NCBI GenBank assembly: GCA_031841125.1
Contig: JAJSSI010000010.1
Coordinates: 1 to 64,000, forward strand
Reading direction: 5' to 3'
From: Acanthococcus lagerstroemiae
Lineage: Eukaryota; Arthropoda; Insecta; Hemiptera; Eriococcidae
Length of the DNA stretch: 64,000 nt
The notes beneath the pieces were generated by a model. That model made no database searches, was not told the DNA's origin, and was given only the letters and a program-made list of their open reading frames with translations. The stretch's first letter is position 1. Each line of letters opens with the position of its first letter. Shown piece after piece: positions 27,684-61,986 of this stretch. The position numbers and the translations under genes were made by a program.

Positions 27684-27985
27684 ATGGATTCACCTTGCTG
27701 TGATGTTACTAACCAAAAACGCTCTTATCAGGGCGTATAGCCGTTTGTGAAAATTCAAAACTTGAGAGAAGGTGCTTTGTATACAGTGAAAAAGATATTT
27801 TCATTCATGAGTAAGTGGAACAGTAAGATTCAGTGGGCATGTGTCTTAGATGGTGTCAACATTGTGCTGCTACCTCGCATCGTTAAAGATTTCAGTGATG
27901 AGCAGAAGTTGGCCGAGTTTTATGAAACTGTACTTGTGCACTCGAACAAATATTCAGGAAAACTAACTGGAGTAACAAAGGGATT
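27684..27985 (+). pseudogene. Decayed second copy of the 41.3-kb viral-type gene
   Basis: It starts MDSPCCDVT like the intact gene at 41274-41762 (MDSPCCEIR). It has a stop, then VKIQNLREGALYTVKKIFSF, SKWNSKIQWACVLDGVNIVL and DEQKLAEF, closely matching that protein. Homology ends abruptly near 27965 where an RTE LINE begins. It shows that more than one copy of the virus-like element reached this genome. Confidence 0.75.
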
Positions 27986-35705: not shown

Positions 35706-36010
35706 CTGGCGGGTTCCAGGGCATAGTATCACAGTAGGATCTGCTAGATGTATTGTCCTATTTATGTACTGAAGCCCCCTATTTTGTTTCTTGATTATTG
35801 TTATCATGTGAGTTTGACGAATATCAGTAGTATGATGCATTTACCCATATGTCCGATTTGTGATCCTATTTCTGTAATGACCGACCCGTGACAGCACCAG
35901 TACCACGATTGACCTTTCTACCGCCAGTGCATGTTCATTGACGCAGAGCCACTTACATTCATGTTGACACTCACCACCGGACTATTTGAACCTGCACCTT
36001 ATACAACTTC

Positions 36011-41060: not shown

Positions 41061-41273
41061 CTGGTACAACACTATAGCATATGAGTAGTAATTGGGTCAC
41101 TTGGGTACACATCACAGACTATGCCAAGTGCCAGTGGTAAGTCATGCGTGCGCATCCAAGGTGGCCCGTGGGAAAAAATTTTTCTACTACTAATATGATG
41201 ACGTCGTGCACTATAATTAATTTTTTTCATAAAATATGACTTATAATAATATGTACACTTATACTTAGATTTT

Positions 41274-41762
41274 TTATCCGCAGACATCTTCGTCACCCTC
41301 GGGCGCTGCTAGATACTTACTTTTTTCCACATAGTTGGTCATATTATAAATTTCCCCATACTGCATTAAGCACATACAAGGTTCTGTGTATTTCAGATCA
41401 AAAAATCTACACTTGCACTCTTGACACAACTCAATACAGAAACAACCTCCGTGAGTAGCCTGAGGTAAAATAATTGTAGGGAACTCATATCCACCTTTCT
41501 CAGCCTTCTGCATGCCTGTGTACATTAAGAAATGAGTAGACTCGCGAAACTCTGTCAACTTTTTCTCATCATTGAATTCCTTAATGAAACGTGGTGGGAG
41601 TACAATTTTTACATCATCCAAGACGCACGCATACTGATCCTGACCATTCCACTTACTCTTGAACGAAAATATCTCTTTCACTGTATACAAAACACGTTCT
41701 CTCAAGTTCTGGATCTTCACAAAAGGTATAGTAGAACGAATTTCACAGCAAGGAGAATCCAT
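41274..41762 (-). CDS. Putative viral replication accessory protein (SSB-like)
   Basis: ATG at 41762 opens 162 aa without introns. PFVKIQNLRERVLYTVKEIF, a charged SKWNGQDQYACVL and KIVLPPRFIKEF make the alternating pattern of a beta-rich, OB-like protein. Short proteins of this kind (a 'KI..L....Y.V' start and 'LPPR(F/Y)') accompany virus-derived genes in insect genomes, but I cannot name the family, so the SSB label is a guess from shape. The C-terminal end is Cys-rich (CFCIELCQECKCRFFD). Two TATA-like boxes lie upstream, and the leader shares CTGTGGAC(T/C)TCACAGTG with the 60.8-kb gene. A decayed copy is at 27684. Confidence 0.5.
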   Translation of the reverse strand: MDSPCCEIRSTIPFVKIQNLRERVLYTVKEIFSFKSKWNGQDQYACVLDDVKIVLPPRFIKEFNDEKKLTEFRESTHFLMYTGMQKAEKGGYEFPTIILPQATHGGCFCIELCQECKCRFFDLKYTEPCMCLMQYGEIYNMTNYVEKSKYLAAPEGDEDVCG

Positions 41763-41856
41763 TATCCGCAAGCACGTCTGAACACTGTGAAGTCCACAGT
41801 AAGAATGAGGAGACTGTCTGAGAGTACCCCTATTTATAGATATCTACATATTGCCT

Positions 41857-41945: not shown

Positions 41946-42596
41946 CTATTCGGTCTCAACCCATTCATCCTTGAATTTGAAATGTACCTGGATCATCTCG
42001 TCTGAAATGTAAACTATATTCACAACCTCCAAACGATCATCGAGTAAGATTTCGTAGAATCTGAGCGGGTCGACGACAAACTCAGTCTGAGTCAAGTTCA
42101 GTCTTTTGGCAAAACCGTACTTCTCAGCTATATAGGATTCTGTAAATTTGTAACAGGCCTGAGTAATACCCTTAGCTAAGTAGTAGAAGTTTACATCTTT
42201 TAAATTCTCATCGTTTAAAATTTCTGTATATCTACAATCATCTGTAACATATTCTGTAATAACCCCATTCGCACATAGATTTAATTCGTCAACAAACTCT
42301 GTCATATTCTCCGGCTTATGCCGTAATACACGTTGTTCGATAGCAGTAATTAATTCTGCTTTACGCATTTTACTAAAACTAGGGATTTTTAATTCTCGTG
42401 CCGTATCTTTCAGATTCTTTACTCGTAATTTCCTTGTATCTCGATAAAGATGTTCTTGATACGTACCATACTGCCTATCACCCGGGGGACTATCTGGTTC
42501 CTGATGTATTTCTGAGACTTGTTCAATTTGATTATTTTTTTTCATACTAACAGACTGGGTGCTATCAATATCAACTCGTGTTGTATCTTGAGACAT
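41946..42596 (-). CDS. SAP/Rho-N-like DNA-binding protein
   Basis: I chose ATG at 42596 (MSQDTTRVDIDSTQ) because it is the first ATG after the TATA box at about 42670; 216 aa. Residues of about 58-92 read LRVKNLKDTARELKIPSFSK then MRKAELITAIEQRV, a helix-extended-helix SAP/Rho-N pattern that binds DNA or RNA. The C-terminal half is acidic with repeated 'FYEILLDD/YTEILNDE' segments suggesting an internal duplication. A similar N-terminal module opens the 60.9-kb protein, and their promoters match. Likely an early nuclear protein of the element; the exact role is unknown. Confidence 0.6.
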   Translation of the reverse strand: MSQDTTRVDIDSTQSVSMKKNNQIEQVSEIHQEPDSPPGDRQYGTYQEHLYRDTRKLRVKNLKDTARELKIPSFSKMRKAELITAIEQRVLRHKPENMTEFVDELNLCANGVITEYVTDDCRYTEILNDENLKDVNFYYLAKGITQACYKFTESYIAEKYGFAKRLNLTQTEFVVDPLRFYEILLDDRLEVVNIVYISDEMIQVHFKFKDEWVETE

Positions 42597-42629
42597 TGTT
42601 AAGCAACATACACATGTGTTCACTATGAC

Positions 42630-42690
42630 AAGCACAGCAAGAGTGATTATACTAGGTAGAGCTACCTATATTTATACTTTTTCAGAGGTA
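42630..42690 (-). promoter_or_regulatory. Early-type promoter (TATA plus initiator region)
   Basis: The minus strand reads CTCTGAAAAAGTATAAATA followed by CCTAGTATAATCACTCTTGC. Both blocks recur at the same spacing in the plus-strand promoter at 60744-60800, so the two promoters are inverted copies or share strict sequence requirements. Confidence 0.85.
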
Positions 42691-42954: not shown

Positions 42955-43161
42955 TCAACCAATTAGTAATCTTCTATCGCGATGTATTTTATGTAAAATT
43001 GGTGTTAAAATCTTCCCAGTTTGTTTAATTCTCCTATGAAATCGCCGACGATCTAACGCTATACGCATCCATGGACCCTTCCGAGCTTCACGTGCCGCGT
43101 CGTAGAAATCACACATAAAAATTACCGTCGCGGTATCGGCAAAAGTCACACGCTTCCCCAT
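42955..43161 (-). CDS. GADD34/PPP1R15-like small protein (PP1/eIF2-alpha cofactor type)
   Basis: Intronless 68-aa protein, ATG at 43161. Residues 4-7 are RVTF, a canonical RVxF docking site for protein phosphatase 1. Residues 28-45 read KGPWMRIALDRRRFHRRI, closely following the GPW...A.DR.RF.(R/K)RI signature by which GADD34/CReP-type proteins engage PP1 and eIF2-alpha; a basic HR..R tail follows. Host versions are far longer; compact versions like this are known from some large DNA viruses, where they keep eIF2-alpha dephosphorylated during infection. A TATAAATA box lies about 90 bases upstream (43255-43263) and the neighbours are viral-type genes. The frame is intact. Role is by similarity only. 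Confidence 0.75.
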   Translation of the reverse strand: MGKRVTFADTATVIFMCDFYDAAREARKGPWMRIALDRRRFHRRIKQTGKILTPILHKIHRDRRLLIG

Positions 43162-43263: not shown

Positions 43264-43649
43264 CTATTACACTGAGAGTATTCTCGTCGACATCACGATC
43301 AGCTGCGCGCGCATACATCTCGTGACGTGTTTGCAACTGGTAGTTGATTCACCCAAACCTTCGACCATACATATTACATGGACTGCTAATACTGATAAGA
43401 ATTTGAAGCCAAACATTGCAGTCGGCCACTTGTGAAAAAGCGTACCTTCATTTGGTATCTTTGATTTACGTTGGAACCTTCGACCATGGTTGAAGGTTGG
43501 AACTGGGAAGAAATTTTTAATTTTAAGTGAAGGTGAAAATTAATAACATTCTTAAAATAATTGCAATCGAATTTCGTCCGTTTTGTACTACATTAATAAT
43601 TTATCCTTCATCTGAATCATAAGTACTCCTAATGTAGATTCTTGTGAAA

Positions 43650-43920
43650 ATGTATTTTCCTCACTCAATGGGGACAAAGATGAATATTGATACTGGCAAG
43701 TACAAGATTCTTGAAGTAGCTGAGATTAATGAAGTACGACTGCACTGTAAGATTACAATACCTAAGTTATTACTGTATGAAGGACTGAAGGTAATATTAC
43801 GTACTAATCAAGTTCCTTTCCGTTTCTCTGTAGGTTGAAGTTATCATCATCAATACTCTAAGAGGAAAATACGCTACGTCTCTCAAGAATTTTCAGCATT
43901 ATGGGTTTGCCTCGATATGA
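43650..43920 (+). CDS. Putative small spliced gene (75 aa)
   Basis: ATG at 43650. Exon 1 is 43650-43790 and exon 2 is 43834-43920. The 43-base intron has GTAATA, a branch-like TACTAAT, a pyrimidine run and TAG, and joins GLK to VEVIIINTLRGKYATSLKNF in phase 0. The peptide has an alternating hydrophobic pattern (beta-rich, TGKYKILEVAEINEVRLHCK). No family recognised. It lies between the viral-type cluster and the P-type gene and is transcribed away from the former. Confidence 0.4.
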
Positions 43921-44148
43921 AGTACGTGCTATCTTAGTATGGCCGGTCAATCTATTAATGTACAATAGACCTACGTGTTGAAGTGATCTTGAATAATATA
44001 GGCAAGCTATTTTTCAAAGAGTTGTATTAGATACTTTTGTAGTTTCAGTTATTTTGCCTGCCTTCAAAGAATAGATATGTAAGTCGAAAGATGTATTTGT
44101 ATTTCACACACACTAAAAGAAAACAATAAGTACCGACAATAATTCGTT

Positions 44149-47100
44149 TTATTGGTGTAGAAAAATTGGTTGCTTCTTTGAAGAGTGTCTAATATCTTTC
44201 TCAACGGTCGAGATTCTCTTGCAAGCATATCTGATTTTTAGTTGAATGTATAGCTGCATTATCAGGGTAACGGTGTGGGTATCCAATCGATGTGTAAAAC
44301 CGCAATCTTCCAAGTGTTCGAGTATTTCCCATTCGACTTGCTCCATGTTCCTCGTGTTTGGGTGAAGAAGCTTTTCTTCGTTCATCCTGAATTGCTTCTC
44401 CACCTCAGAGCACATTTCCACGATTATTTTCGCCGGGATCGTCAACTTTCCCCGATTCTTCAAATCAATCAGATCAGACGTATTTGTAGGATCTTTCAGT
44501 TTCATGATCTTTTCCAAAGTAGCCATTTTTTTATCTTGAAGTTTCCTGACCAAGAACCCTGCCAAGTACGCGACGACATCCGCATCGTACTCCTCGTTTT
44601 TACTGAGGACTATATTGTCAGAATTACCAATCTCGTCAAAGTCTCCATCAAAATCTTCGACGCGGACTGCGTCCAGTACGTCGTCACTGACAACTTCTGT
44701 GAATAGGCTACCGGCGCCACTCTTTCTTTTATTAATTGTTGAGGATACTGTAAGGATTTTGGTATCATCACTACTACAGTTGGAACCTGTAGATGTCCTT
44801 AATTCATGATGAACAAGTAATCGCTTGAATGTTGATTTAAATTGTTCTGCGTTTGGGTTATTATTACAACCACCACGAGACCTTGCAGCCGAGAACCATG
44901 TCTCCAGATGGTCTTGACATAACTTATACGGCAGAAGGTATTTCAAACCGTAAGCTTGTAAGGACAGAAATAATGGAATTAAATTAGTCAACGAAACAAT
45001 AAAGCCAAGGAACCCGGTTTTCCTTCTGTGCTCAAGAGCCATTTTTCTTTCTCACTTTTCCCAATGCAGGAATTTTCGTTCTTCGATATTGTCCTCCTTG
45101 ATCTCCTCACCATCATTTGCATCTGGCTCACCTCCGGTTTTCTTCTTGGCACGTTCCTTGGGAGGATTTTCAACTATTTTTAATCCGCGGATGTATTCCA
45201 TCGCTTCGTCGCACCATGCTTTACATTTAGGTAGGTTCTTCGAGCTGACTGGAACGTCATAAGCCACTTTTTTGGAAAATACACTTCGACAATTCAAGAT
45301 GTCAAACATGTGATCAAACTGAATACAATATTCGGCTGTGCCCTCACATGAAGCGAATTTTTCAAACCCTTTTTTCTTGGCATGTAGGAGGGCTGCTGCT
45401 ACCGATGAACTGAGGGTTTGAGCTGCGAGTCTAACTCTCATTTTATTTTCTCGCCACTGTATGTGGCGCTTCGTCAGCCGAGGAGCACTATACAGTTCTC
45501 TTGTTTGATTCAAGTAGAACAATTCTTTGATATCTACAAATTTGATTCCTCTATTTTCCTTATCGACTAGAACATAATCACCGAGTGTATTCCGCACTAG
45601 TTTGAGGGCATGAGGTGGATCCAGGAAGAGGAACACTTTCTCGTCTTTATGACATGGATGCGGAAACCAAGGTCGGAAGTCGGGACCAAGTTCCAAATTC
45701 GCACCAAGTAGTTTGAAGCATGCTAAATTGGTAGATAAACCGTCGAATGTAACTGACCTAACAACTATATCCGCATCGTCTACAAGCTGTAGAGCCGTTT
45801 CCACTAAACGACTCAGATTGTCTGCTTCTAAACTGTTCACCAGGAAGTAAGCAATTGGAAGCTTCCATTTGCCATTCAGGCAGACTAACATAAAGACCAT
45901 CGCCTTTTTGGCAAGAGGTATACTGTCCAAGTCGGAGTAACCAAAACCTAAATCTTCATAACCGTGATATTGTCCGTTTCGGTATGTTATTTCACTCCGA
46001 ATGTCGATTTCGTCCATCATGAAACCGGCGATAATTCTAGTAGGAGAGTCCTTAGCTTTTGCCTTCAGTGCTGACAGCGCTTCCTGGCAAAATCCTGGTT
46101 CCCCATCAATTCGTGCATACCAGTTTCTAATAGTTGATGTGTGCGGCAACAGATACTGAAACTCCTCTCGAACATAATTATAGGATCGAGGGGAGTAAAA
46201 ATGGAGCGTCAGCGCGAATTTCCGTAGTTCCTTACTGTATTTGGCCTTGGCAACCATTTTTTTGCGTATCACAAGTTGAAGTAATGTTTCTGGTAAATCA
46301 TCCTGTGAAACATGGAAATAAATCAATAGGATTCCGATAAATAAATCACATTTTATTACATGATAAACTTCACAATTTCAGTGAACTTGAATATTCACCC
46401 ACAGGGTGAGCACAGATATTTCACCTTTTATAGGCTTCTTTGTAGGTAAGAAGGTGATTTTATTGGAGCTTATACTTGACATTTTGAAATATTAAAAAAA
46501 ATTTAAATTATAGGTCACAGTTTGTCCCCACTCCACTTAAATATATACCCATCTAGGGTGAGCACAATACACCAGGTAGGTAGATTAAAACTTAGATTTA
46601 AGAGATATTTTACTATTTGCAGGCTTCTTTGTAGGGAAGAAAGGGATTTTGTAGGCACGTATACTTGACATTTGAAATATTTATGAAAATCAAAATTGGA
46701 GAGAGGTACGTACATGAAAACACAGATACTTTCGAGGATAAGTTTCAGGAACTCACGTTCAATGTACGAGCCACACCATCTGGAATCCGATATTCTTCCG
46801 GGCACTTCGAACGCAAATGTTCAATCAGTTCTTTCATTGTTAGAACCTTCTCCCGCAGTCGACGATTGTCCTGTTGCAAACACCGAATCTTACGGACGCA
46901 CTCGGCAACAGTTTCTTGACCGTATTTCAAGTTCAATCGAGCTCGGCGAGGAGACGCCATGTCAGGAGTACGTAATTTCATAAATGATGGTCGATCCCGG
47001 AGGTATGCTTTTAAAGATGGAGAACACGTCGAATCTGCATCTATACAAAGAATTTTACAATATTACTGTACACATCGCGCGCTAAACAGGCAAACGCAAA

Positions 47101-48620
47101 TGAACAAAGTCATTTCAAACATTTCGTATTCCTATATGAGAATTTATAACTTTGGAAACATTTCATGATCATCTTACAGGATTGTGTTTTATCTTTTCTT
47201 TTATCTTGCCTTCCAATGCAGAACTCGTAAGCCGTTGACGGGGTTTCTGTTCCATTTTCTACTTCAGGAGATACTGTGCGCTGTAGCGTTGGCGTGGCCG
47301 GTAATAAATATTCGGGCTCATCTTGAGCATGCACTGTAGTAGGAACATGCCGTTCAACATCTAAGTTACAATGAAAGGAATACATTTTAACGACAGTTCT
47401 TTCAACTGAAGGTTTCCCAAGCCTTGCATGAAAAACTTCTCACTTTCTGAAGGAACATTCTGCTCCAAACGTTGTTTGCAAACAGTTTCATGTTTCTTAC
47501 GATTCACTTTCCTTGTAAACTTTTTATCGCAATAAACGCAACCCTACAAGAGGAAGACAGAATACACCTCTGTTACACGAAAGCAATGAAAGTAATGTGT
47601 ACAGCTATGGACTGAGACTGAAATCTGCATACGTACAAATATTTGTTGATGTTGGGCATTAGCTGTTTTGTTTGTTACATGAGTTGCCATCTCGTTTTCG
47701 TGCATTTTCCACTTATGTTTTCGACATCCTTCCTTAGAAACAAACGTTCTCGAGCAATGAGGACACTGAAACTTTGTATTCTGCTCTCCACGGAAAGAAA
47801 AATAGATAATTATTATTTATGAAATACTGAGAAAGTATGTTACATTTAAATACAGTACGACACTTGGAGGCTCACTAGTCACCTTAATCACTACAAAGGA
47901 ATGTTTTCTTCTTTTATGTCGCAGCAGGCCGGAAGCAACCGTAAATTTCCTTGAACATTTTTCGCACTTATGTACTTTCTGAAAAAGTTAGATAAAGTTA
48001 GTGTATGAATATATGCGGCTACACATTTCCGTAATATCCGGTATATCCCACAAATAAATTCGAATTCTTGAAAATCGATAGTGCAACTTCGACGTAGTGT
48101 ACATAGTAGGCATAAATACAACATAATTATTAGGTATTTAAGTTATTTATAAAAATAAAGAAATCGCATTTATGACTGAATAGGATACCGTTCACCATCT
48201 TCCTCAGTAGTCAGTAACCCTCCTCTTTTCAGTGAAGTTGACGTTCACTTGCCTCACAATGCAGGTTTCCGAGATTCAAAGTAGGATGGAAGTATGATTC
48301 AAGGAAAAATGATGAATCGGTTTTCAAAACTGTGAATTGTATCGTATTCAGCCTTCAAAATACTTCCATGTACCGTATTAACTTTTTTCTTATAACTGTA
48401 CGAACCTTAGGATTGCTTCCCACAAACTTGCAGCATTTCAGGTGTTGAATTAAGCGTTTTCTCGATTTCATCTGCTTAGCGCAAGAGGAACATTCCTAAA
48501 TGAATGAGAAAGGATGGAAAAGTATGAATAATTGAGTTCATTAATACTGTTATGGATAAGTCATATTATCACGTACGATCAAGTTTTAATACTTACAAAT
48601 AATTCTTCAACAGCTTCCAT
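44149..48620 (-). CDS. C2H2 zinc-finger / P-element-type transposase gene, eight exons
   Basis: Exons 48597-48620, 48406-48495, 47883-47978, 47637-47780, 47444-47543, 47178-47360, 46757-47040 and 44149-46302 join with consistent phases, about 1023 aa. Exons 2-5 carry four fingers: CSSCAKQMK...H...CC, CEKCSRKFTVASGLLRHKRRKH, CPHCSRTF...H....H and CVYCDKKF...H....C. Exon 7 has a leucine-zipper-like IRCLQQDNRRLREKVLTMKE. Exon 8 is P-superfamily: FMMDEIDIRSEI (Asp), VTFDGLSTNLACFKLLG, FLDPPHALKLVRN, KTGFLGF, QDHLETWFSAARSRGG. One in-frame TGA (45052-45054) splits exon 8. AATAAA overlaps the final stop. P-type transposases normally bind DNA by a THAP domain; fingers here are unusual. No terminal repeats found. 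Confidence 0.85.
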
Positions 48621-48639
48621 TTATCCGAAGATTCACTAT

Positions 48640-51600
48640 CCTGATATTAGAATTCCTTCTCGAATATACGAATAATCATACGATTTAATAATTATAATAT
48701 TTCTATTAATAATTATTCCCTTTGTAATAAATCAGAATAAATCCCGCTTTTATTCTTAATTCTTATCAGTGACATGAGAGGCAAGGTACGCTTTTTCACA
48801 AGTTGCCTCCTGACAATTAGCAGTCCATGTAATATGTATGGTCGAAGACCCAAACGCAAATAATTTTGTGCACTTCTGGTGACGGTGTGCCGTAGACACG
48901 ATATGGAAAAGGTTTCTACTATTCGGTATTTTAGGTCTTTTTTCTTCAACATTTCCAGCAGAGCGTTAATGTAACCTGCGTCTCATGGTTGAAAGCCTAA
49001 ATTATGAATTAGTAAACACCTAAATTATTTTATACTTTTATCTACGCACCAAAAAATTGAATCTGTAAAATAAATATGAGTGAACATATTTTTTCACACG
49101 AAAATGTGAAACTGGTTTGACATTGGTACGCGCTTTCATGTATGTGTTGGAAAAATTCTGTTATCACTGGAATCTAATTTGACAAGATCGTGAAAGCATA
49201 CTCCGTCCATGTACCTGTACATTTTATGTGTTACTCAGTGAAGTTTAAATTGCATCAGACCTCAGGCGGTATGTATATCTCTACTCGGTTGTATTTCTTA
49301 ATACAGGGTGATGAGGATTTGTTACTGATTGTTTCTCTCTGTTCATAGATGACCGACTTCACACGTTATTTGTCTCTGGTGATGGGCGAAATGAAAACTG
49401 AATTCCGACTCGCGAAAGGGAAAAAACGTAAGTTTTCCACTTGTCTCATTACAACGACCGTTTTAATACTGTAATTAGTTACCGTGATTGTTGACATGTA
49501 ATGATTCTCTCTCTCTCTCTCTGTTCACAGTCTAACATAGGTGTTGTGTCTTTCAAAGAGTATAGAATATTCTCCACGTTGTTATGATTCTCGAATTGGT
49601 CGTAACTCAGTGAAAAGTAAGTTGTCCTATTCAAACTGTTACATTGTGTTATGAGACGATCCTTTGTACAAATTATACTTCATACCGAATGACTGTGTAC
49701 TAATTTCTGTTTAATAGCAGTTGATCTACGCTCATAAGCATTGAACCAATCAACTTGTATAGGAAGACCACCGTTTTGCTAGTAGTACACATCCAGTTTA
49801 ATAATATTTTATTTTATCAGAACTCGTAAAACGTTACGTTAATCAATAATTAGTGTTTGTGACAAGGGAAATAGAATTAGGAAGTGAGCTTTTAACCTGA
49901 ATTCACGTTGGAAACTTGTTTGAGAATACTACAAATAAATTCTGAACCATAAAGTCGTTTATCGCTTACTTTCTCATTATAAAATATGTACCTTTGAATT
50001 TTCTCTTACCTCGCTGATAAAGACGATGAAATCATCTCTACCTACAACTACCGTTTATAAAAATGTACCATTAACTCACTCCTTCATTATTTTTAAGTAA
50101 ACTGACAAAGTGTCGAACATATTTCAGTTTCTGAGACTTATTTCTCAACATCCAAACCCCCTGATCGAATATGAAAATTTATTATTATTAAGTAACTAAT
50201 GAACAAACCGAAAAAAAAAATTTCTATGAAACCTGAAAGGTTATTTTTACGTTTTAGTAGTCAACCGTATTGGTACCGATTCTTTAGTCAACTTTAATAA
50301 AAATGTATTGTGATACAACGATCTGTACGTCTCTTGAAAACTCCGTTGTGATTTTATTGTATTGCAACGTTGAACTCGTACACAGTGTGTTCTGAGTTAT
50401 CGATCTGTTCTTATGACGGTAATGTAGTATAGCTACATCAGTATTTTTAAATAAAAACGAAGAAAAATCTAATCTTAAATAATAAAATATAAAATAGTTA
50501 CAGGAACAAGTTTTAAAAATGTGAGTAAAACACGATACAACGATATAAAAAACTGAGTACCTAACCTAATCATGTAAAATTTTTGTGCACATACTCGTGT
50601 GTCGACTTGGTTGTTTTCAATTCAGCGCTAATTCAACTTCAAAAAAACCTATTTTTCACATCCCTTAATCCTTCACTGATATCATTCCTAACACTGCTCT
50701 AACGTTATTTATTCGTATAATTGAGAACCATCTAGAAACTTGTCTTGTACTGTACCAAGAAAACGGCAGAGCTGAAGATGTTTCATAAGTCCTAACTTCA
50801 CCACTACGAGTATGCATACCAAAAATCAAAAAATTTATTTTTAAGTATTACATGATGAAAATATATGAACCTTGTACTTGATTCGGAGTGAACATTAAAA
50901 ATCGTACATAATACGAATGAAATGAGTTTCCAACGCGAATTCAAGTTTTGATCAAATTGTAACGAGATATTGTCTTCAACCGTGTATCATTCTCAAATGG
51001 ATCGTTGAAAAAGAAATTATTTGAGTGTCATACGATTTTTTCAGAACTGTACTGTATAACGTAATTTCGTACTTCATGGTTCCCCTAAAAACGGGATACG
51101 GTATAGAAGTATCCCATGAGAGATCGGTCAATGCATACCATGTTATCCAATAAAAACAACGTTTTCCTTACACGAATACAAAACTATTTTATAATTTTTT
51201 GACGGTACCTTGTTGCCATTATGAAACAAAAATTTAAAAGTAAATGTACACATATAATATTTCATACGAAAATGATAAATTTTACTCTAAGGAAAAAATT
51301 GAAGTAGCCGTTCTGTCCACCAAAGGACAAACACGATAGTGAACATATTGAATACTAAATCAAACAAATATATAACTCTACAGTCTCTTACGAATTTGAT
51401 GAGGAATTCAAAACTGTGGGAAGTAATGTACTTTTACATTATTATTATTTGTAACCGTAGTTAATGTCCTGGCCAATTATACGTTTATCCGAATGTATTT
51501 TTCTCATCTGCATTACACGCTCGCTCCATCGAATGACCACGAAGTTTCAACGTATTATTACTGTAGTGAATCATTTGTATTTTAGAATCTCTTTACTTTC

Positions 51601-52679
51601 ATAAGTCTTATAATTGTAATACTCGGATAAGGAAAATGTACTAAATAAAATTGTCCCGCAATGACGAAACGTTGTAACCAATTTGTCGAACGTATTTTTC
51701 CCTTGTGACAACGTGAAACAGAGATAATTTATGCTATGAAAACGAGAATTCCTGATAACAGTCAACAGACTCACCCATCACAGAGAAGCTTTGGATAAAT
51801 TTTACTACAACACTCGTTCTGTCAGCTGTCATGAAGATCCTTAAAAATATGTAGTTAAGGTCTGGAGCTGTTTACCATTTTGTACTGAAGTGTGACTCAT
51901 ACTTTATTTGTGATGTCATAAGACAAGCTCAGACTTGTCGTTAGTTCCCCGACATAGTGGCGCCAGTGTATCTTACGTGACATGCTAAAGTGAAAATGAG
52001 AAAGGACTACCGCGTTCTGTATTTTAGGTCTTTTTTCTTCATCGTTTCCAGCAAAGCGCTAATGTATCCCATGTCTCATGGTTGAAAGCCTAAATTATGA
52101 AAATGTAAACACCTTTTCCGATATGAATGTAAACATAGAATATGAAATTATTTGAAGTAGACCCATCCGGAATTTTAATAAATATTAAATTATATTGTGC
52201 TCTATACATCCACCACCGTAAAAAATACGAATTTCATTCGACACTGAGAACTCGAATTATGCCATGTGAATCTAATTTGACATTTTCGTGAAAACATACT
52301 ACGTTCCTGTCGGTAAGTATTTTCGTGTTCGCTTTTATAATATACTGGAGAATAAGTAATTTTTGAAAGTGACGAGGATTTTTTTGTTTGTTTAGAACAC
52401 GCTGATTTACTTCAGAAAAGAACCTGAATTCGGAAACTGAGCACTAGTAACTGAATGAAAAGAAAACGTAAGTACGGGTCGTAGAACGGCGTATAAAAAA
52501 CTACCGAAATATTTACGTATTATAATTAGTGAATAATACCAAAAATTTCTGTGAATGTAGACGTCCAGTTCCGTAGTCGGGTTTTATTTACGTTGGAGAA
52601 ACGCGATGCTGTATCTGAATTGATTTACCGTAGTATAAATGTTCATTTTCATAATCGACACCACCTGTTGCGAGATGTA
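48640..52679. repeat. Non-coding region with a diverged direct repeat
   Basis: 48926-49020 and 52019-52113 are near-identical (GTATTTTAGGTCTTTTTTCT ... CTCATGGTTGAAAGCCTAAA). Weaker similarity continues to about 49440 and 52480, where each copy has an acceptor-like and a GTAAGT donor-like site on the plus strand around a very short frame. I see no supported gene; it could be a non-coding transcript or a replication or packaging region. Confidence 0.5.
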
Positions 52680-52684
52680 TGCTC
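52680..52684. repeat. Copia target duplication (TGCTC), left
   Basis: TGCTC here equals TGCTC at 57207-57211, a 5-bp duplication flanking the copia element. Confidence 0.85.
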
Positions 52685-52901
52685 TCTTAAATTCACATAA
52701 TGAAAACTCGCGAAAATGAAAACAAAGTACTTTTAATGACAAACGGAATACATCTTGTACCGAATTAAAAAAAAAAATTCTATCAGACTAAAAGATAAGT
52801 CTCTAGTAAAAGGTGCGTACAAACTGTAGTAACAACATAATCTTAAGGCATGTGTACACTGAACAACTTAAATGTATATGATAGCATTCCTAAACTCAAC
52901 A
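52685..52901 (-). repeat. Copia 3' LTR
   Basis: 217 bp, nearly identical to 56988-57206. On the sense (minus) strand it begins TGTTGAGTTTAGG. The inner edge is preceded by the purine tract AGCAAGAGAAGG (52902-52913). Confidence 0.92.
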
Positions 52902-52968
52902 CCTTCTCTTGCTGAAAAATACATTTAAAAAAAAAAAAAAACTTACAAAAAAAAACTTCTTTAAAAAG

Positions 52969-55900
52969 TTAACAATTTTGCTGTAAACCAATCTTTTCGC
53001 AAAGAGCGTAGAGCCTTACTCGCTCCAAGGGCTTTGTCAACATATCAGCTAGTTGATCCTCTGACATAACATAGCTGACGCGAATATCACCATTAGACAC
53101 CAATTCTTGAATGTACATATGACGTCGGTGAATATGTTTGGTTCGACGATGCATAACCGGATTTTCAGCTAACTTTAAAGCGGCAGCATTGTCCATGAGA
53201 AGGGTAGGCACAAACTTCCTACCAACCAGACTTTTCAGCATTTCAGTTAGCCAAACTGCCTCCTTCCCTGCTTCACTTGCAGCTACTATTTCTGCCTCTG
53301 TTGTGGAGAGCGCAATTGACATCTGGCGTTGACTCAGCCAGGAGACTGCACCTGCTGCATACTTTATTATAATTCCAGTAGTTGATCTTGCTGTTGTTTG
53401 ACAACCACCAAAGTCTGCGTCGCTGTAGCACTCAAGTTCTTTTGACCTCATGCTGTATCTAATACCAAAATCCGCAGTTCCTTTGACATATTGAAGTACT
53501 CTCTTAGCACGCGCAATATCTTCATTGGCAGGGTTTTCTAGGCTTCTCGAGAGCACGCCAATACTGTAGGCTAAATCTGGTCTAGTTCCAGTCATAAGAT
53601 ACATGAGTGACCCGACTACTTGTCGATATGGAAATGCCTTCTCTTGTTCCTTTTTAGATTGTTCCACATTGGTTCCTTTCAGCATAGGAGTGCAAATTGG
53701 TCTGCTATCATTGAATCCAAACTTACTCAGCATTTTCTTGGCATACCCTTTCTGAGTTATTGTAATTCCGTCATTTGTTTTCTTGATTTCAAGACCCAGA
53801 TAGTAGTTTGCTTCCTTTGATACTATCTTGAATTCTTGTCTCAACTTGTTAAGAAAACAATCTAGGACCTTCTGATCTGAATACGCTATTAAACCATCAT
53901 CGACGTACATGGTAAGCAACATCTTTTCGCCATTTTCTTCGTAAGTGAATAAACAAGGGTCGGCTTTGCTCATTTTGAAACTCTCTTTTTTCAAAAAGTC
54001 GCCAAACCGCTCACTCCAACAACGAGGCGCCTGCTTTAATCCATACAGACTTTTAATGAGCTTACAGACCTTTCCTTTTTCTCCTTCAAAACCTTCTGGC
54101 TTCTGCATATAGAGTTCTTCCTTGAGCTCTCCATAAAGAAAAGCAGTGGATACATCAAATTGAGTCAACTTCATGTTCTCACTAGCGGCAACTCCTATAA
54201 CGCATCTAACAGTGGCCAAACGTATAACAGGACTAAACGTTTGATCATAGTCAACTCCTTCACATTGACTGAAACCTTTTACAACCAAACGAGCTTTAAA
54301 TCTATCAACGCTTCCATCTGGATTGGTTTTAACTCTGTAGACCCATTTACATGGAAGAGCCTTGCAGCCTTTTGGTAAAGCCACTTCCTCCCAAGTATTG
54401 TTTTCTTTTAGTGACTTTAGTTCACTTTCCATCGCTTTTTGCCATTCACTTTTCTCGCTTCCTGAAATGGCTTGTTCAAACGTTGTAGGCGTCTCAATTT
54501 CGGCAAAACAAACATATTCATCTAGATAACTGGGTTGTTTGAGTGCAGTTCCTGTTTGAGTTCTTGTCCTAGGCCCACTGTTCTCTCCCAATTTTTCTGG
54601 ATCATCGCTTTCTGACTCATCTGAACTTTCTATATTCTTGGGTTCTTCTGAGTTCTTTTCTACCACAGATTCTTTATTGATATTTTGTGGTTGAATCAGA
54701 AGTTCTACTTTGGCTTTACAATCTTTCAGCGTTTCTTGAAACATCACATCCCTGGATAGGTAGACTTCTCTTTCTTCTGGAACATAGATTCGATAGCGCT
54801 GATCACCATCATATCCAACCAACACTCCTTTCTTGGCTTTTGCATCCATTTTTCTCCTTTTCTTGTCCGGAATATGGAAGTAGGCTGTTGAACCAATTAT
54901 TCTCAAGTGTTTGATTCTTGGTGTTTTCCCCAACCATGACTCATATGGTGATTTACTTTCTTCCGAAGACTTTGCGGTTCTGTTGAGAACATAGACTGCA
55001 GTTTGCATTAGCTCAGCCCATATTTCATCTGGATACTCAATGTCTTTATTTGAATACTTGAAGGTGCGCGCCATTTCTACAACTGTTCTGTTTTCACGCT
55101 CGGCCTTCCCATTCTGTTGCGGAGTGTAGGGTGCTGTGGTATGCTTTTCTACACCAAAATCCTTGAGAATTGCATCCACTTCTCTGTTGACAAATTCTCC
55201 ACCGCCATCACTGACCAATTCTTTCACAGAATGTCCTATGTTCTTAGCATGGGCGAGAACTGCTTTCATGCAATCTTTAACTTCAGATTTTTCTTTCATC
55301 ACAAAGCCATAGCGAAATTTGGTATAAGCATCTTTGAAGATAACAAAATACTTATAACCAGAGAAGGATTCATCAAACGGTCCTATAACATCTGTTGATA
55401 GGATTTCTCCTGGTTTGCTGGCTTTTCGATTTGTACCAAAAGGCAATCTACAGCTCTTACCATATATGCAGTCTTCGCATATTTTGTCATCAAGTTTTAC
55501 TTTCATGTTCAACTCATGTTCTAACTTCTGTTTCACATGTTTCTTGTTTTGATGACCCCAGCGTTCATGGTACAGCTGTAGCATGTCTATTGTTGCGTTC
55601 ACACTTTCTACTTGCGGTGTTACAACAAAATCAGCTTTATACAAGCTACCTTGATTCTTTCTGGTTCCGGTGATCATTATTTTGTCATCAATTTTGAAAA
55701 CACACTTAGTAGCTGAAGATTCAAATGTGCTACCCGGATTTCTATCATGAGCGGCCAGTGGTGAAAACAAATTCCGCGAAATCTTGGGAACATACCAAAC
55801 ATCCTTGAGTTCCAATACCTTTTCTTCTCCTCGGATTGCAGATTGAATCTGAATTGTTCCGCAACCAACAGCTTGAAGATATTCAGTACCAGCAGCCTTC

Positions 55901-56922
55901 ACTTTGTAGCTCTTTGGTAGTTCGCGAAAATCGATGAAATGATCCTTACAGTTGGTGATGTGTCGAGTGGCACCATTATCTATCCACCATGATGAATCAT
56001 TTTCGGTTACCTCGGAATTGTTGCAGCAGATTGTAAGAAGAGCAACTTTCTTCATTTCAGAGGAATTGGCAACATTACTTACAGCACCTTTCTTCTTGGC
56101 CTCTGATTCTGCCCTTGTTGGTCGACCATCTTTAATCCACTGTTCACATCTGCGGATCCAGTGACCCTGCTTTCCACAATACTTGCATCCTTGATCACTA
56201 GATGGGTTTGAATTCAATGGCTTAGCTCTGAAGTCTCTCTTCTTATGATTGGATTTTGCAGCCAGCAGCGCTTCAGACTCTCCTGTTGATGGCGGTACAA
56301 ATCCTCGTTCAAAGATAACCAACTGATTAACTAGGTCATCCATCGTTTCCTTTTCGTCATCTTTCAGCATCTGCCACGAAGACTTGAAAGTATCAAACGC
56401 ACTAGGTAAAATACTGAGCATTTTACATACAATCATAAGCTCTGGTAACTTCGCTAAGTTCTTCTCTGTAAGCCCGACATTAAGATCATGCCAGATACTT
56501 CTTAACTTGGCAGCATGCGTAGCAACATCGGCACCATTCATCCACTTGAACTCAAAAATACTCGACATAAGGGAGAACAACTGATCCTTGGCGCTAGCTT
56601 CAAAAAGTACCTTCAACTCGTTCCATAATTCAAACGCTGTCTCCTTATCCATGACTTTGACGTAAACTTCTTCTGACATTGCGCCAGTCATGATACTCTT
56701 GGCGAAAGAATTAGCTTTTCTGTACAGATCAACGGCTGCCTTGTGCTCTTTCTTTTGATCAGGTGAAGCATCATTAGCAATATCAACGGGTTTTGTTAAC
56801 TTACCGTCGATTACATCTAACGTGCCTTCATGGAAGTCGAGAGCGTCTCGAATTCTTCGTCTCCAAACCGGCCAATCTGACTTGCCTTGCAACGGCTTGA
56901 TAACAATTCTTGGCGACTCCAT
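52969..56922 (-). CDS. Copia Gag-Pol polyprotein
   Basis: 1317 aa from ATG at 56922 (MESPRIVIKPLQGKSDWPVW); the frame is open 41 codons further into the LTR, but this ATG opens the Gag domain. Order: Gag, CCHC knuckle CKYCGKQGHWIRRC (about residues 246-259), protease WWIDNGATRH (about 313), integrase HHCC-type HERWGHQNKKH...C..C, catalytic core with DVIGPF, LVSDGGGEFVN and PYTPQQNGKAERENRT, RT with WVYRVKTNPDGSVDRFKARL and the catalytic YVDDGLI, and RNase H with YSDADFGG and ALSTTEAEIVA. No stop or frameshift. The protease site is DNGA where DSGA or DTGA is usual; the remaining catalytic motifs look normal. Confidence 0.95.
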   Translation of the reverse strand: MESPRIVIKPLQGKSDWPVWRRRIRDALDFHEGTLDVIDGKLTKPVDIANDASPDQKKEHKAAVDLYRKANSFAKSIMTGAMSEEVYVKVMDKETAFELWNELKVLFEASAKDQLFSLMSSIFEFKWMNGADVATHAAKLRSIWHDLNVGLTEKNLAKLPELMIVCKMLSILPSAFDTFKSSWQMLKDDEKETMDDLVNQLVIFERGFVPPSTGESEALLAAKSNHKKRDFRAKPLNSNPSSDQGCKYCGKQGHWIRRCEQWIKDGRPTRAESEAKKKGAVSNVANSSEMKKVALLTICCNNSEVTENDSSWWIDNGATRHITNCKDHFIDFRELPKSYKVKAAGTEYLQAVGCGTIQIQSAIRGEEKVLELKDVWYVPKISRNLFSPLAAHDRNPGSTFESSATKCVFKIDDKIMITGTRKNQGSLYKADFVVTPQVESVNATIDMLQLYHERWGHQNKKHVKQKLEHELNMKVKLDDKICEDCIYGKSCRLPFGTNRKASKPGEILSTDVIGPFDESFSGYKYFVIFKDAYTKFRYGFVMKEKSEVKDCMKAVLAHAKNIGHSVKELVSDGGGEFVNREVDAILKDFGVEKHTTAPYTPQQNGKAERENRTVVEMARTFKYSNKDIEYPDEIWAELMQTAVYVLNRTAKSSEESKSPYESWLGKTPRIKHLRIIGSTAYFHIPDKKRRKMDAKAKKGVLVGYDGDQRYRIYVPEEREVYLSRDVMFQETLKDCKAKVELLIQPQNINKESVVEKNSEEPKNIESSDESESDDPEKLGENSGPRTRTQTGTALKQPSYLDEYVCFAEIETPTTFEQAISGSEKSEWQKAMESELKSLKENNTWEEVALPKGCKALPCKWVYRVKTNPDGSVDRFKARLVVKGFSQCEGVDYDQTFSPVIRLATVRCVIGVAASENMKLTQFDVSTAFLYGELKEELYMQKPEGFEGEKGKVCKLIKSLYGLKQAPRCWSERFGDFLKKESFKMSKADPCLFTYEENGEKMLLTMYVDDGLIAYSDQKVLDCFLNKLRQEFKIVSKEANYYLGLEIKKTNDGITITQKGYAKKMLSKFGFNDSRPICTPMLKGTNVEQSKKEQEKAFPYRQVVGSLMYLMTGTRPDLAYSIGVLSRSLENPANEDIARAKRVLQYVKGTADFGIRYSMRSKELECYSDADFGGCQTTARSTTGIIIKYAAGAVSWLSQRQMSIALSTTEAEIVAASEAGKEAVWLTEMLKSLVGRKFVPTLLMDNAAALKLAENPVMHRRTKHIHRRHMYIQELVSNGDIRVSYVMSEDQLADMLTKPLERVRLYALCEKIGLQQNC

Positions 56923-56973
56923 TTCAGCCTCATTACCGCAACTCTGATTGTCGCGCAGTGCGGAAGCGTAACA

Positions 56974-56987
56974 CTGGTCCCATAACC
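56974..56987 (-). promoter_or_regulatory. Copia primer-binding site (half initiator tRNA type)
   Basis: The sense strand reads GGTTATGGGACCAG directly after the 5' LTR. This is nearly the site by which Drosophila copia primes from an internal fragment of initiator methionine tRNA. Confidence 0.75.
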
Positions 56988-57206
56988 TCTTAAATTCACA
57001 TAATGAAAACTCGCGAAAATGAAAACAAAGTACTTTTAATGACAAACGGAATACATCTTGTACCGAATTAAAAAAAAAAATTTTATCAGACTAAAAGATA
57101 AGTCTCTAGTAAAAGGTGCGTACAAACTGTAGTAACAACATAATCTTAAGGCATGTGTACACTGAACAACTTAAATGTATATATGATAGCATTCCTAAAC
57201 TCAACA
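56988..57206 (-). repeat. Copia 5' LTR
   Basis: 219 bp; the sense strand runs TGTTGAG to TTTAAGA. It holds the promoter in this family and contains extra codons in frame with Gag-Pol. Target duplication TGCTC follows at 57207-57211. Confidence 0.92.
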
Positions 57207-57211
57207 TGCTC

Positions 57212-60050
57212 ATGCTACTTCAGTGAGTGTTTCCGATCGTGTATGTAACGTTAGTAACAAACTGAATTTTCTCATTTACCGAACATTGTAGTAACAAAAT
57301 AGACTTTTTTATCACTACTATATGGTGTCCACTCTCTCTCTAATTTGTGCAGTAGCTCGGATCTGAACATGAACTGAGTAACCATACTCACACTTATAAG
57401 TAGCTTAGTCTGAACTGAATACGACGGTTTTTACATTTTCGACTGTATAGGAATGATGCTTGAAAATCTTTGAGACGATTTCTAGATACTCATTTTGTAG
57501 TATTTACCAACTGAACACGTCTAGGTTTCCTTGGGTTTCTTATTCTAAGAATGTGTGATGAAATCCCAATTCGCGAGTGACGTTCCCAACCAATTTTGTA
57601 GAAGTACCATACCATTTTCAAATATGATGAGATGGATAATTGTAATCGTACTAAAGTAGTTTTTAGGCTCTTGAATCTACAGAAACGACAACTAATGAGT
57701 CAAAACAACGTTTTTACTTTCTTAAAATTATAAATCATAATTCAGACGGTTGTACATCGCAGAACACGAATAAAAAAATCTTCATTAATACCCATACGGT
57801 AGGGGTGTACCCCGGCCTTATGTAATAACACCTGGTATTATTAGTTGTATATAGTACGACATGAACTGAAACAAACAAAAATAATAATAATTATAATAAA
57901 ATATTAGACACTTGTATCTCTCTAGATGGTTTCAGATCTATATTAATTTGTATGGTGAAAACGTGTTTTCAAAATGTTCATAACCAGAAAAATAGGAAGA
58001 CATGAAACTATTCCAACCAAGGAAAAATTTCTCGTAACCGCTCGAAACGAAGACGAACCTGATCATTGAAGGTCACCCACTAAGACGTAATATTATAGAA
58101 AATCTAGACTGATTCATTTTTTTTTTTGTATACAGAGACGTTAGGTCTGTGATACTTATTATTAAAGTGTGGATTCTCTAGCATTTACCAAATCACAGGT
58201 TGGGGACTCGGAAATTTTTTTATTTTGCCGATTTTAGACGTATATTCCTACATAGAACGAAAATGATTTACATCTCACGATTCATTTAGCGATGGACGCC
58301 TCAGATTTACACAAGAAAAACATCTTGCAGGGGTTCGGAGGTTTTTTTTTGCATGTATTTGCTAAATACTGTCAAAAATGTAATTTTCAGGGTCAAAAAA
58401 TCTGCACTCTGCTTATTATATTTACGAGATATCTATACGTTAAATTTAAAAACATCATTTTTTGATTGTTGAACGGACCAATTTTACACAACGAGTGTTT
58501 AATGAAACAAAATTGCCACTCGCGACGCACTGTACGATCGATCAAAAGCAGTTTTTTGAAAAAATTAAAAAAAATGAAGGTACTTACATCCATAATAATA
58601 TACTGTTGTATTATTGTCGGGTATGGGAATCTCATTCCCTATGGTTACAGGATAATTCGGTAAATTCTAAAAGGGCAAAAGAAATTACATACCTATGAGT
58701 CTCGTGTAAATTTAATATAAAAAAAAAATAAAAATAAAAAAAAATACCTTAGTACTGTAAAAAAGACGAAAATAAATAATAGGTACTTACATTGTTGGTT
58801 CCTGTAGACATTTTTGGCAAAAATTGAAATGAACTATATAGCGAACTTTCGAAAAACGAACACAAAAAACTTTCAGAACTTATAGGTTCGATTGCAAATC
58901 GTGGTCTGATCGATCGGCATCGGTTCGAGTTGGAATTAGGCAGCGGATTTGGGCTTATCAGTTTCCATAGTGTAGGGATTTCTGTCGACTCAGCTAAAAA
59001 ATGGTCCCGCCAGCGTCCATAAAATAGACGGAAATGTGTAGGCGAGTTGGAACATTTGTACCATGATTCTGAACCTGAGGCTCACGTAAGGTATAAACCG
59101 AATCTCTTTCTTGGTGTACGACAATTTATCAGGCAGAATTCTGTACTAACACGCAAAACGCGGATTGTTTAGGCTTCTACTGGCTCCAATTATACTCGAA
59201 CTGCTGAATTTCTCATTACTACACAAGTCCAATTTGAGACCTGACCAACTCAAAAATTCAACAGACATTCCTCGAAACAGTTACCAATCTGGTAATTTCA
59301 AAGCATCTTGAGAGGTAGTCATTCTTTTTTTCCGCTCTCAGTGTATTCGTCATAATATACTCAAATTATTTTTCCCTCTATTTTTACACGTTTTTTCAAG
59401 TGTTCATGATTCATAAATTACCACTATGTTGTACACACTCTCAAAATTTTATGGGACAAAGTCAATAATGTAGGGTGGCTGGTGTTTTCAATGTTCACAG
59501 GTGATATTACGGACTTTGACCATCTACGTCACGAATCACACATAAACCTATTTCACTCATTTCAAAAACATCTTGAGAGGTCTTTGTAATATATGTACAC
59601 GATTTAGATACGTTTTCTACAGATCTCAGATTCATTTCATTTCTCTACCTATCAGATTTTAATTGAGTATACAGTCCAGTCTTTTGTTTTGAACTATGGA
59701 AATTATTCTACCCATATCTGGGTTATAAATCTCGAAAAATAATAACAATCACATACACCTGCAACCGTGGTTAGCTTGAGCCAATGACTCATCTCATCGA
59801 ACAAGTCCAAGCTTGTCTTATGACATCACAATGAATCATAATACCTAATATGTTCTATTTTCATCACACCCATCGTCCCTTACAACCGGTACATCTTTTC
59901 TGACATAGCCGTAATTATATTAGGTTGACGACGTATTTTGAAGGTACTGCAATTTTATTCAAACGGTTGTCGTCGAATGTAGATAAAATTCCTCACGAAG
60001 ACGATTGGTAAAATAATGCGTCACAGTAGATAAAATCGTAAACGGCTACA
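57212..60050. other. No gene identified
   Basis: AT-rich, no supported coding. 59801-59830 is a 28/30 inverted match to 51909-51938. Poly-A/T-rich patches lie at 58115-58130 and 58725-58745. Confidence 0.5.
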
Positions 60051-60743: not shown

Positions 60744-60810
60744 TCTCTGAAAAAGTATAAATAGAAGTGTGGTTACCTAGTATAATCACTCTTGCTGTGG
60801 ACCTCACAGT
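60744..60810 (+). promoter_or_regulatory. Early-type promoter of the 60.9-kb gene
   Basis: TCTCTGAAAAAGTATAAATA, then CCTAGTATAATCACTCTTGC and CTGTGGACCTCACAGTG. Parts are shared with the minus-strand promoters at 42630-42690 and 41778-41874. Confidence 0.85.
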
Positions 60811-60899
60811 GAACACATGTCTTTTGCGGAAGCTCTGTTCATTGATTGATTGTTTACTGCGAATTATTACTGCGATTTTTCTTGCGATTATTACTTGCG

Positions 60900-61964
60900 A
60901 TGGCTCAAGCGTATGTTGATTTTATCAACCATCATCCTTTAATGGATAGGAGCGTGAAAGAATTATGTGTTTTAGGTAAGGTACATAAGATACCTTATTA
61001 TTATAGGTTAACTAAAAAACAGTTGGTGTATGCTCTTACCAACACTGTACAGAATTTAGATTTAAGTACTAACACCAAAAAAAGTGAAAAAACTGTAAAT
61101 AGTAATTATAAGTTAGCTGATATATTTCCATTTAAGTTTAGTTTATTCCCTAGAAATAAGAAATTGAGCCAGTGGGCAAAACCTGGCCTGTGTAAATATT
61201 TAGATCAGATTAATGCTAGTCCTGTAGTTTTAAGTCATACTAACACCAAAAAAAATGAAAAAACTGTAAATAGTAATTATAAGTTAGCTGATATATTTCC
61301 ATTTAAGGTTAGTTTATTCACTAGAAATAAGAAATTGAGCCAGTGGGAAAAACCTGGCTTGAAGAGTTATATCGAGAAACTTGAAGCTGAGATTGAAAGT
61401 GAACCTGTAGAAGAGTGTGTGAACAGTGAATTGATTGAAAAAACTAAAGAGAGTGATGAAGTGGTGCAGAATTTAAACACAAACAAGGATGTGAGTGATT
61501 TAAACATTGGTTTGGAAACCGAATTAGCGCTAGGAGACGAGTTTAGTTTTGAATTATCGACTAGCGAGTTGGATTTCGACGATATTTTGAAAGAGTTGAA
61601 CCTTATGACTGGGGTGCCGCTACCAGTGTCATATGAGAGTGAGTTGGATTCTCTCCTGAATGAGTTGGGAGGTATGGAGGAACCTGTCAATGAGCCGTGT
61701 GAGATGTTGTTGGGAGATATTTTCCCATTTGACAACAGTGTTTTTGTTCGTGCCCGTCCCTCTAGATGGAGTCGCCCTGGCTTACATAAGTATATGAGAC
61801 GTTTACAGGTAAGTGAACCCGATCCCATGTTGAATGAGTATGTTACGCGTCGTCCTACTCGTCCCTTACCTCTCGAACGGTATGTGCTCCCGCGTTTCGG
61901 CCCGTTTCTCCCGTCGCCTGTCCATCCGCCTGTAACCGCTGCTCCTCTTCCACCCCCCCGGTGA
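60900..61964 (+). CDS. SAP-like protein with three-fold DIFPF repeat
   Basis: I chose ATG at 60900 (MAQAYVDFINHHPLMDRSVK); 354 aa. The N-terminal ~45 residues, KELCVLGKVHKIPYYYRLTK then KQLVYAL, form a SAP/Rho-N-like helix pair, as in the 42.6-kb protein. Then comes a module with YKLADIFPF...F.RNKKLSQW.KPGL..Y, present twice nearly identically (about 61069-61200 and 61240-61375) and a third time, diverged, near 61710-61810 (LLGDIFPFDNSVFVRARPSR W.RPGL). The linker is acidic and the C-terminal end Pro/Arg-rich. It ends 22 bases before the polymerase ATG. Role unknown; I infer a DNA- or packaging-associated early protein. Confidence 0.6.
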   Translation: MAQAYVDFINHHPLMDRSVKELCVLGKVHKIPYYYRLTKKQLVYALTNTVQNLDLSTNTKKSEKTVNSNYKLADIFPFKFSLFPRNKKLSQWAKPGLCKYLDQINASPVVLSHTNTKKNEKTVNSNYKLADIFPFKVSLFTRNKKLSQWEKPGLKSYIEKLEAEIESEPVEECVNSELIEKTKESDEVVQNLNTNKDVSDLNIGLETELALGDEFSFELSTSELDFDDILKELNLMTGVPLPVSYESELDSLLNELGGMEEPVNEPCEMLLGDIFPFDNSVFVRARPSRWSRPGLHKYMRRLQVSEPDPMLNEYVTRRPTRPLPLERYVLPRFGPFLPSPVHPPVTAAPLPPPR

Positions 61965-61986
61965 GACTAACAGTGTAGAGGTTGAG

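Follow-up and report, generated by a model that had tools for sequence, protein, structure and literature searches.

A predicted stand-alone GADD34-like core carried by Polinton/adintovirus-type elements in the genome of the hemipteran Acanthococcus lagerstroemiae

The genome of A. lagerstroemiae carries a family of short genes whose predicted products resemble the C-terminal core of the PPP1R15 proteins GADD34 and CReP and which lie on virus-like integrating elements. The starting point was a 68-codon frame in the window, the whole stretch of 64,000 nucleotides analysed here (positions 1-64000 of contig C10). We consider it likely, with a probability of about 0.8, that this frame is a stand-alone viral PPP1R15 core on Polinton/adintovirus-type elements that recruits PP1 to eIF2α. 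The first-pass annotation had proposed an element-borne antagonist of translation shutoff, and we infer the same role for the window protein. Beyond that proposal, the gene proved to be a multicopy family distributed over three element groups. The copy in the window is C-terminally altered, and two insertions, one a P element and one copia-like, interrupt the element that carries it.

The frame is real and well beyond chance. It is open on the minus strand from ATG to stop over 68 codons, and the plus strand is interrupted by stops. The two motifs of the original description are in place: RVTF occupies residues 4-7 and is followed 21 residues later by GPWMRIALDRRRFHRRI, starting at residue 29. 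The window copy also carries LTPIL as the downstream LxxxL, and GPWxxxAxDRxRFxxRI plus LxxxL is what we take to be the published eIF2α-binding segment of the PPP1R15 core. A profile search, named beforehand as able to refute the GADD34/CReP assignment, returned PPP1R15 matches. The window protein scored 28.9 bits (E=1.1e-6) with Pfam PF10488 (PP1c_bdg), whose cut-off is 26.1 bits, and a phmmer comparison with PDB sequences recovered GADD34 (PPP1R15A, 7.8e-8), CReP (PPP1R15B, 2.1e-5) and DP71L (2.6e-5). Residues V13-I14 align with V564-H565 of GADD34, described in the available text of PMC10743859 as the second PP1 contact after RVxF; the histidine is absent from the window protein.

A six-frame search of the insect's own genome (658,055,089 bases in 438 contigs) gave 65 matching rows, and all 65 candidates were scored. 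The window's type, group A, comprises 25 near-full copies that are 68-100% identical to the window copy (68-94% for the other 24), and a further 12 group A pieces span only residues 37-40 to 63-68. Group B accounts for 16 rows at 15 loci and group C for 8 rows. The remaining four rows are a likely host exon, two remnants (L058 and L059) and a second short match within a group A locus. Proteins from intact frames are 80-85 aa long in group A, mostly 92 aa in group B and 80 aa in group C. Representatives from the genome matched PF10488 with E-values of 2.8e-7 (L003), 1.9e-8 (L026), 1.5e-8 (L030), 1.2e-10 (L042) and 1.4e-6 (L044); one group A copy, L009, remained under the cut-off with 24.9 bits (1.9e-5). 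Most group B loci share 96-99.8% identity with L030 over about 3 kb, which suggests a recent spread; L042 is 77% identical over 689 nt. Nine sequences, taken from the three groups and from the host exon, were aligned, and V5, F7, W31, A35, D37, R40, F41, I45, L52, L56, H60 and R61 are invariant among them; GPW is replaced by SIW in group C.

The carriers can be assigned to the Polinton/adintovirus type, as PolB, an rve integrase, an A32-type ATPase and a double-jelly-roll (DJR) capsid gene occur in groups A, B and C; the virus-like element of the first description is thus confirmed. For group B, we found the integrase (3.6e-10, L030), the ATPase (2.9e-10), the capsid (5e-63) and PolB (6e-25, L051), together with a trace match to the adenain-type protease family Peptidase_C5 (0.005, 17 bits, below the cut-off of 21.3). 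Stretches of two copies put the group B element at about 17 kb, and a comparison of the outer parts of two separate copies revealed a 214-nt inverted repeat (82%). The corresponding group A genes gave 6.8e-9 for the Pox_A32 ATPase, 3.9e-50 for the capsid and 3.4e-14 for the integrase (L052); the integrase at L056 scored 3.5e-13. The part of PolB available from L056 matched organellar/viral (protein-primed) type-B polymerases at 1.6e-42, and the group A PolB part is 70% identical to the group C PolB over 528 residues. In group C, integrase (1.3e-13, L055), ATPase (5e-9), capsid (1.5e-34) and PolB (4.7e-47, L055) are likewise present. The distance to the GADD34-like gene is about 2 kb for the capsid gene of group C and 1.5-3 kb for PolB of group A.

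The immediate surroundings, about 3 kb per locus, were read for 25/25 group A, 15/15 group B and 2/8 group C loci, 3/12 pieces, the host exon and the two remnants, using 20 element proteins as queries against the stretches around the genome matches. An element gene lies within about 1.6 kb in all 45 group A, B, C and piece loci read, a count that is partly circular because the queries were drawn from the same loci and the copies share flanks by descent; the weight of the context evidence thus rests on the core genes in the longer stretches. At this distance each of the 25 group A loci has an accessory gene (ACC1, F3 or SAP), and two have PolB itself. PolB and the SAP ORF adjoin the gene in the three pieces read out of 12. 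An integrase is nearby in 14 of the 15 group B loci, with an accessory gene in the remaining one, L042, and accessory genes stand beside the gene in both group C loci read out of the 8 rows. No element gene was found in the 9.8 kb upstream of the group C copy L054, and no viral gene in the surroundings of the remnants L058 and L059.

Could the frame simply derive from the host's PPP1R15, as one of its exons or as a retrocopy? The mammalian PPP1R15 core is encoded on a separate exon according to the accessible part of PMC4394352, and a lone core frame could accordingly be such an exon. We regard this origin as very improbable, since the likely host exon lies elsewhere. At L047 (C7:1645389), on another contig, the core is preceded by TTTTATTTTTAG|GTTCGT, a canonical splice acceptor, no viral genes occur over 13.1 kb (the 3.3-kb locus plus 9.8 kb upstream), and the window protein is 39% identical to its product. 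The finding that would have refuted the first-pass annotation, a longer host PPP1R15 exon containing this frame, is thus absent. In addition, the window frame begins with an ATG of its own, three codons downstream of an in-frame stop, and element genes adjoin all 25 group A copies.

The phylogeny points in the same direction. The tree was built from 60 rows and 71 columns with seven rows of group A, three of group B and two of group C. L047 falls into a separate clade (100/97) with apparent exon read-throughs of other sources, for instance P0002, and groups A (98/96), B (95/86) and C (100/95) lie outside this clade. The branch holding all three groups and six database proteins is weak (85/74), so that one capture and several captures fit the tree alike. 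Group C clusters with the database protein P0040 (99/93), indicating that its type is not confined to this genome.

Relatives outside the genome came from a profile search of the protein database; of its 330 candidates, 48 had E ≤ 0.01. Hymenopteran PF10488 proteins obtained with the same profile comprise a 71-aa Bracon brevicornis entry called 'Protein DP71L' (P0022), a 153-aa protein of Odontomachus brunneus (P0015) and a partial protein of Cotesia congregata (P0045), which was excluded from the tree because of its short length of 41 aa. In the tree, the Bracon and Odontomachus proteins lie with the cellular exons and are hence probably host cores, the former apparently named after the virus protein. 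The single-sequence search with the window protein (P0001) among 5.8 billion proteins returned no relative, nor was one found among viral contigs by single-protein search (P0001, P0049, P0041) or by motif pattern. PolB and the 34.9-kb ORF likewise gave no match to viral contigs, and the SAP ORF gave one, limited to Rho_N (L001), on a contig where inspection by eye suggested capsid-, ATPase- and recombinase-like ORFs. As a separate observation, P0041, P0048, P0049, P0026, P0030 and P0040 are short PPP1R15-core-like proteins from database contigs of up to 31.6 kb; they look unlike cellular exons and may be further virus-borne copies.

The features of the window's own element are compiled in Table 1.

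Table 1. Features in and around the window's element (window positions unless a contig is named)
Feature	Position	Strand	Remarks
Zone where similarity to other copies stops	41072..41192		ten loci at 41072-41084, twelve at 41192
Accessory ORF F3 (KIQNLRE family)	41274..41771	-	beside the gene in 5/25 group A loci (window included) and 2/2 group C loci read
229-aa ORF with Rho_N/SAP-type domain	41946..42635	-	PF07498 2.9e-7
68-aa GADD34/PPP1R15-core-like gene	42955..43161	-	group A copy; C-terminus altered after residue 63
TATAAA	43258..43263	-	first base 102 nt 5′ of ATG; GTATAAATA context also before both SAP-like ORFs
P element	43351..48855		32-nt inverted repeats 43359-43390/48816-48847; two long transposase-like ORFs
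Viral element resumes past P element	48848..50189		95% to L003 over 1288 nt, 92% to L005 over 1353 nt
Sequence of other group A element type	51809..52684		94% over 895 nt to L007; adjoins copia-like insertion
Copia-like retrotransposon inside element sequence	52684..57216	-	232-nt end repeats, 97% identical; 1358-aa ORF
Promoter-like stretch	60745..60820	+	84% over 76 nt to stretch before 229-aa SAP-type ORF
SAP/Rho_N-like ORF upstream of PolB	60900..61964	+	Rho_N 0.0074, under cut-off
Type-B DNA polymerase (PolB)	61936..64000	+	PF03175 1.7e-7; open at window end, frame runs to C10:65943

The zone in which similarity to the other copies stops is the probable left end of the element, approximate to the base. 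Just upstream of the gene sits the P element, flanked by an 8-bp duplication of its target, ACCCAAAC (43351-43358 and 48848-48855). The window protein is shorter than its nearest intact relatives of 80-85 aa: its C-terminus is different past residue 63, and the usual final 20 or so residues are missing. From its last 25 or so codons into the adjoining DNA, the gene region matches an inverted copy at C10:66768-67909 over 1142 nt with 99.7% identity; this copy repeats the gene's 3′ end together with most of the SAP ORF. Because of this inverted duplication we take the window copy to be rearranged, which would fit the unusual residues at its C-terminus. Beyond the inverted copy, integrase, phospholipase and capsid-side genes follow on the other strand, the integrase-to-capsid part at C10:68-74 kb. 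We rejected an interpretation of the 41.9-43.0 kb block as a terminal inverted repeat belonging to a single, simple element, as this block is the inverted duplication flanking PolB.

Several further features of the window and of the group A elements deserve mention in their own right. The 3′ part of the 229-aa SAP/Rho_N ORF (41954-42120) shares 88.8% DNA identity with a stretch of PolB (L056:1271-1440), and the ORF reads as a chimeric gene. A decayed F3 copy at 27678-27986 on the plus strand, with 52% protein identity over 103 columns and one stop, indicates that the window contains more element debris. The ORFs at 34.9-40.9 kb were rejected as part of the virus: similarity to the other copies ends at 41.07-41.19 kb, and they had no convincing match in the fetched loci. 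A 281-aa frame among them (34886-35728, minus strand) weakly resembles part of the poxvirus D5 primase (best E 0.17), although no Pfam family passed its cut-off and the protein database gave no match; together with the ORFs up to 40.9 kb it is possibly the remnant of another virus. Group A elements carry a phospholipase A2-like domain (PF08398) at L052:5535-6365 (1.3e-11) and L056:7326-8201 (1.4e-11), a kind of domain that occurs in parvovirus capsids. Between the ATPase and capsid genes of a group A element on C6 (L052:2261-2798, plus strand) lies a homologue of the TATA-binding protein (TBP), a 154-aa frame matching Pfam TBP at 1.3e-21 and PDB TBP at 6.8e-28; this copy looks broken because the first TBP repeat, identified by eye, lies just upstream in another frame. 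TATAAA or TATATA occurs within 220 nt upstream of the GADD34-like gene in 20/25 group A, 2/2 group C and 0/15 group B loci, which is weak evidence because AT-rich DNA often gives such words, the copies are not independent and the counts come without a chance control. The TBP homologue and the TATA-type stretches suggest a virus-encoded TBP.

Conservation of a captured gene may merely reflect recent multiplication of its carrier, the gene itself being dead cargo by now. The near-identity of most group B loci to L030 and the internal stops in 4 of 25 group A copies are in line with this possibility, as are the two transposons in the window element and the lack of significance for several pairwise selection estimates. 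Over the 59-60-codon core, however, dN/dS was 0.31 between L026 and L012 (p=0.003) and 0.41 between L042 and L030 (p=0.03); the values for L026-L003 (0.32, p=0.002) and L026-L002 (0.33, p=0.003) are not independent of the L026-L012 comparison. Four pairs were non-significant: L042-L041 (0.50, p=0.14), L003-L012 (0.46, p=0.37), L002-L012 (0.49, p=0.31) and L002-L003 (0.27, p=0.07). Whole-frame ratios reached 2.0 for L019-L012 and 0.80 for L002-L012. Pooled pN/pS was 0.50 for 20 of the 25 group A copies (L014, L020, L021, L024 and L025, which are cut short, were dropped), 0.43 for the 15 copies left when L002-L005 and L026 were also taken out, and 0.42 for 12 of 15 group B loci (without the frame-shifted L038, L043 and L049). 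These are signs, partly significant, of purifying selection between diverged copies. Moreover, 21 of the 25 group A copies are stop-free within the match and the motif residues are kept across three diverged groups, and we consider dead cargo unlikely.

The protein would most likely act as DP71L and ICP34.5 do, bringing PP1 to eIF2α and keeping translation on. In this scheme, RVTF would dock host PP1, and the GPWxxxAxDRxRFxxRI helix and the LxPxL segment would hold phosphorylated eIF2α. G-actin would probably be the third partner of the complex, as established for mammalian PPP1R15 in the accessible part of PMC4394352. The complex would strip the phosphate from eIF2α, and translation of viral proteins could continue where host stress kinases would otherwise stop it. 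The stress kinases acting on eIF2α in insects are PERK and GCN2. A profile of the nine aligned sequences matched GADD34 (7.7e-18), CReP (6.8e-13) and DP71L (1.5e-11), and L52xxxL56 aligns with the LSAVL stretch of DP71L, which is critical to function according to the available text of PMC5618007. A comparison of predicted structures had been proposed at the outset as a check. A model of the window protein, computed from a 35-row alignment of this protein and 34 of the 48 profile matches, has helices at 16-27, 30-35, 38-56 and 58-66 (pLDDT 78, pTM 0.37). Searched with Foldseek, it gave 0 matches in the PDB and two in BFVD, both weak (E 0.065 and 0.094) and both viral: an ICP34.5 from a herpesvirus and a shearwaterpox protein.

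A PP1-targeting protein might also have another target or effect, for instance by diverting PP1 from host substrates or competing with host PPP1R15 and so lowering eIF2α phosphatase activity. The 68-aa copy with its altered C-terminus could bind PP1 yet lack full activity, and the GPW motif is changed in group C. Conservation is, however, not restricted to RVxF: the substrate-binding residues W31, A35, D37, R40, F41, I45, L52 and L56 are invariant too in the aligned sequences of the three groups and the host exon, which makes such a diverted role quite unlikely.

Short PPP1R15 proteins are a kind already known from viruses. The first-pass annotation had named them for some large DNA viruses, and the accessible sources bear this out for herpesviruses and African swine fever virus (ASFV; PMC5618007), coGV (PMC4394352) and baculoviruses (PMC5704228). 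ASFV DP71L (short form, 71-72 aa) and the C-terminal domain of HSV-1 ICP34.5 are likewise stand-alone or nearly stand-alone PPP1R15 cores with an RVxF and an eIF2α-binding segment, and in the available text of PMC5618007 both recruit PP1, which dephosphorylates eIF2α. In contrast to these genes, which sit in large DNA viruses of vertebrates, the gene described here lies in integrating, multicopy elements of the Polinton/adintovirus type. By description, the baculovirus protein coGV-gp036 (UniProt Q1A4R0) is a similar case of a captured PPP1R15 core in an insect DNA virus (parts of PMC4394352 and PMC5704228); the baculovirus gene is described as most likely lepidopteran in origin, and the accessible part of PMC5704228 mentions Polintons and this gene separately.

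With Polintons/Mavericks and adintoviruses the present elements share PolB, the rve integrase, the DJR capsid and the A32/FtsK-type ATPase; the trace of an adenain-type protease and the inverted repeats near the ends may be further common features. Drosophila-associated adintovirus 1 has 14.5 kb and twelve proteins, and none of those named in the available text of PMC8363768 is PPP1R15. By comparison, the groups in A. lagerstroemiae carry PPP1R15, and group A adds the phospholipase A2-like gene and the TBP homologue. A search of open-access full texts gave no report of a GADD34/PPP1R15-like gene in Polintons, Mavericks or adintoviruses, in agreement with the first-pass annotation.

The gene makes it testable whether Polintons are infecting viruses or transposons that only jump. 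Its presence argues for infection since it would be useful in an infected cell, has no obvious use for jumping, has been kept in three groups and bears signs of purifying selection. The gene suggests that the elements had to overcome the shutdown of cellular protein synthesis as ordinary viruses do. With somewhat better than even confidence, we propose that insect Polintons/adintoviruses are small integrating DNA viruses that have kept PPP1R15 in at least three lineages because phosphorylation of eIF2α is a real antiviral barrier in insects, which are not known to possess PKR. Since the spread of group B appears to be recent, expression and activity of the gene can be tested in the living host. 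If the proposal is true, this would be the first antagonist of the integrated stress response in the Polinton/adintovirus class and would provide independent evidence that the elements cause true infections beyond mere transposition. It would also mark eIF2α phosphorylation as an antiviral response of insects.
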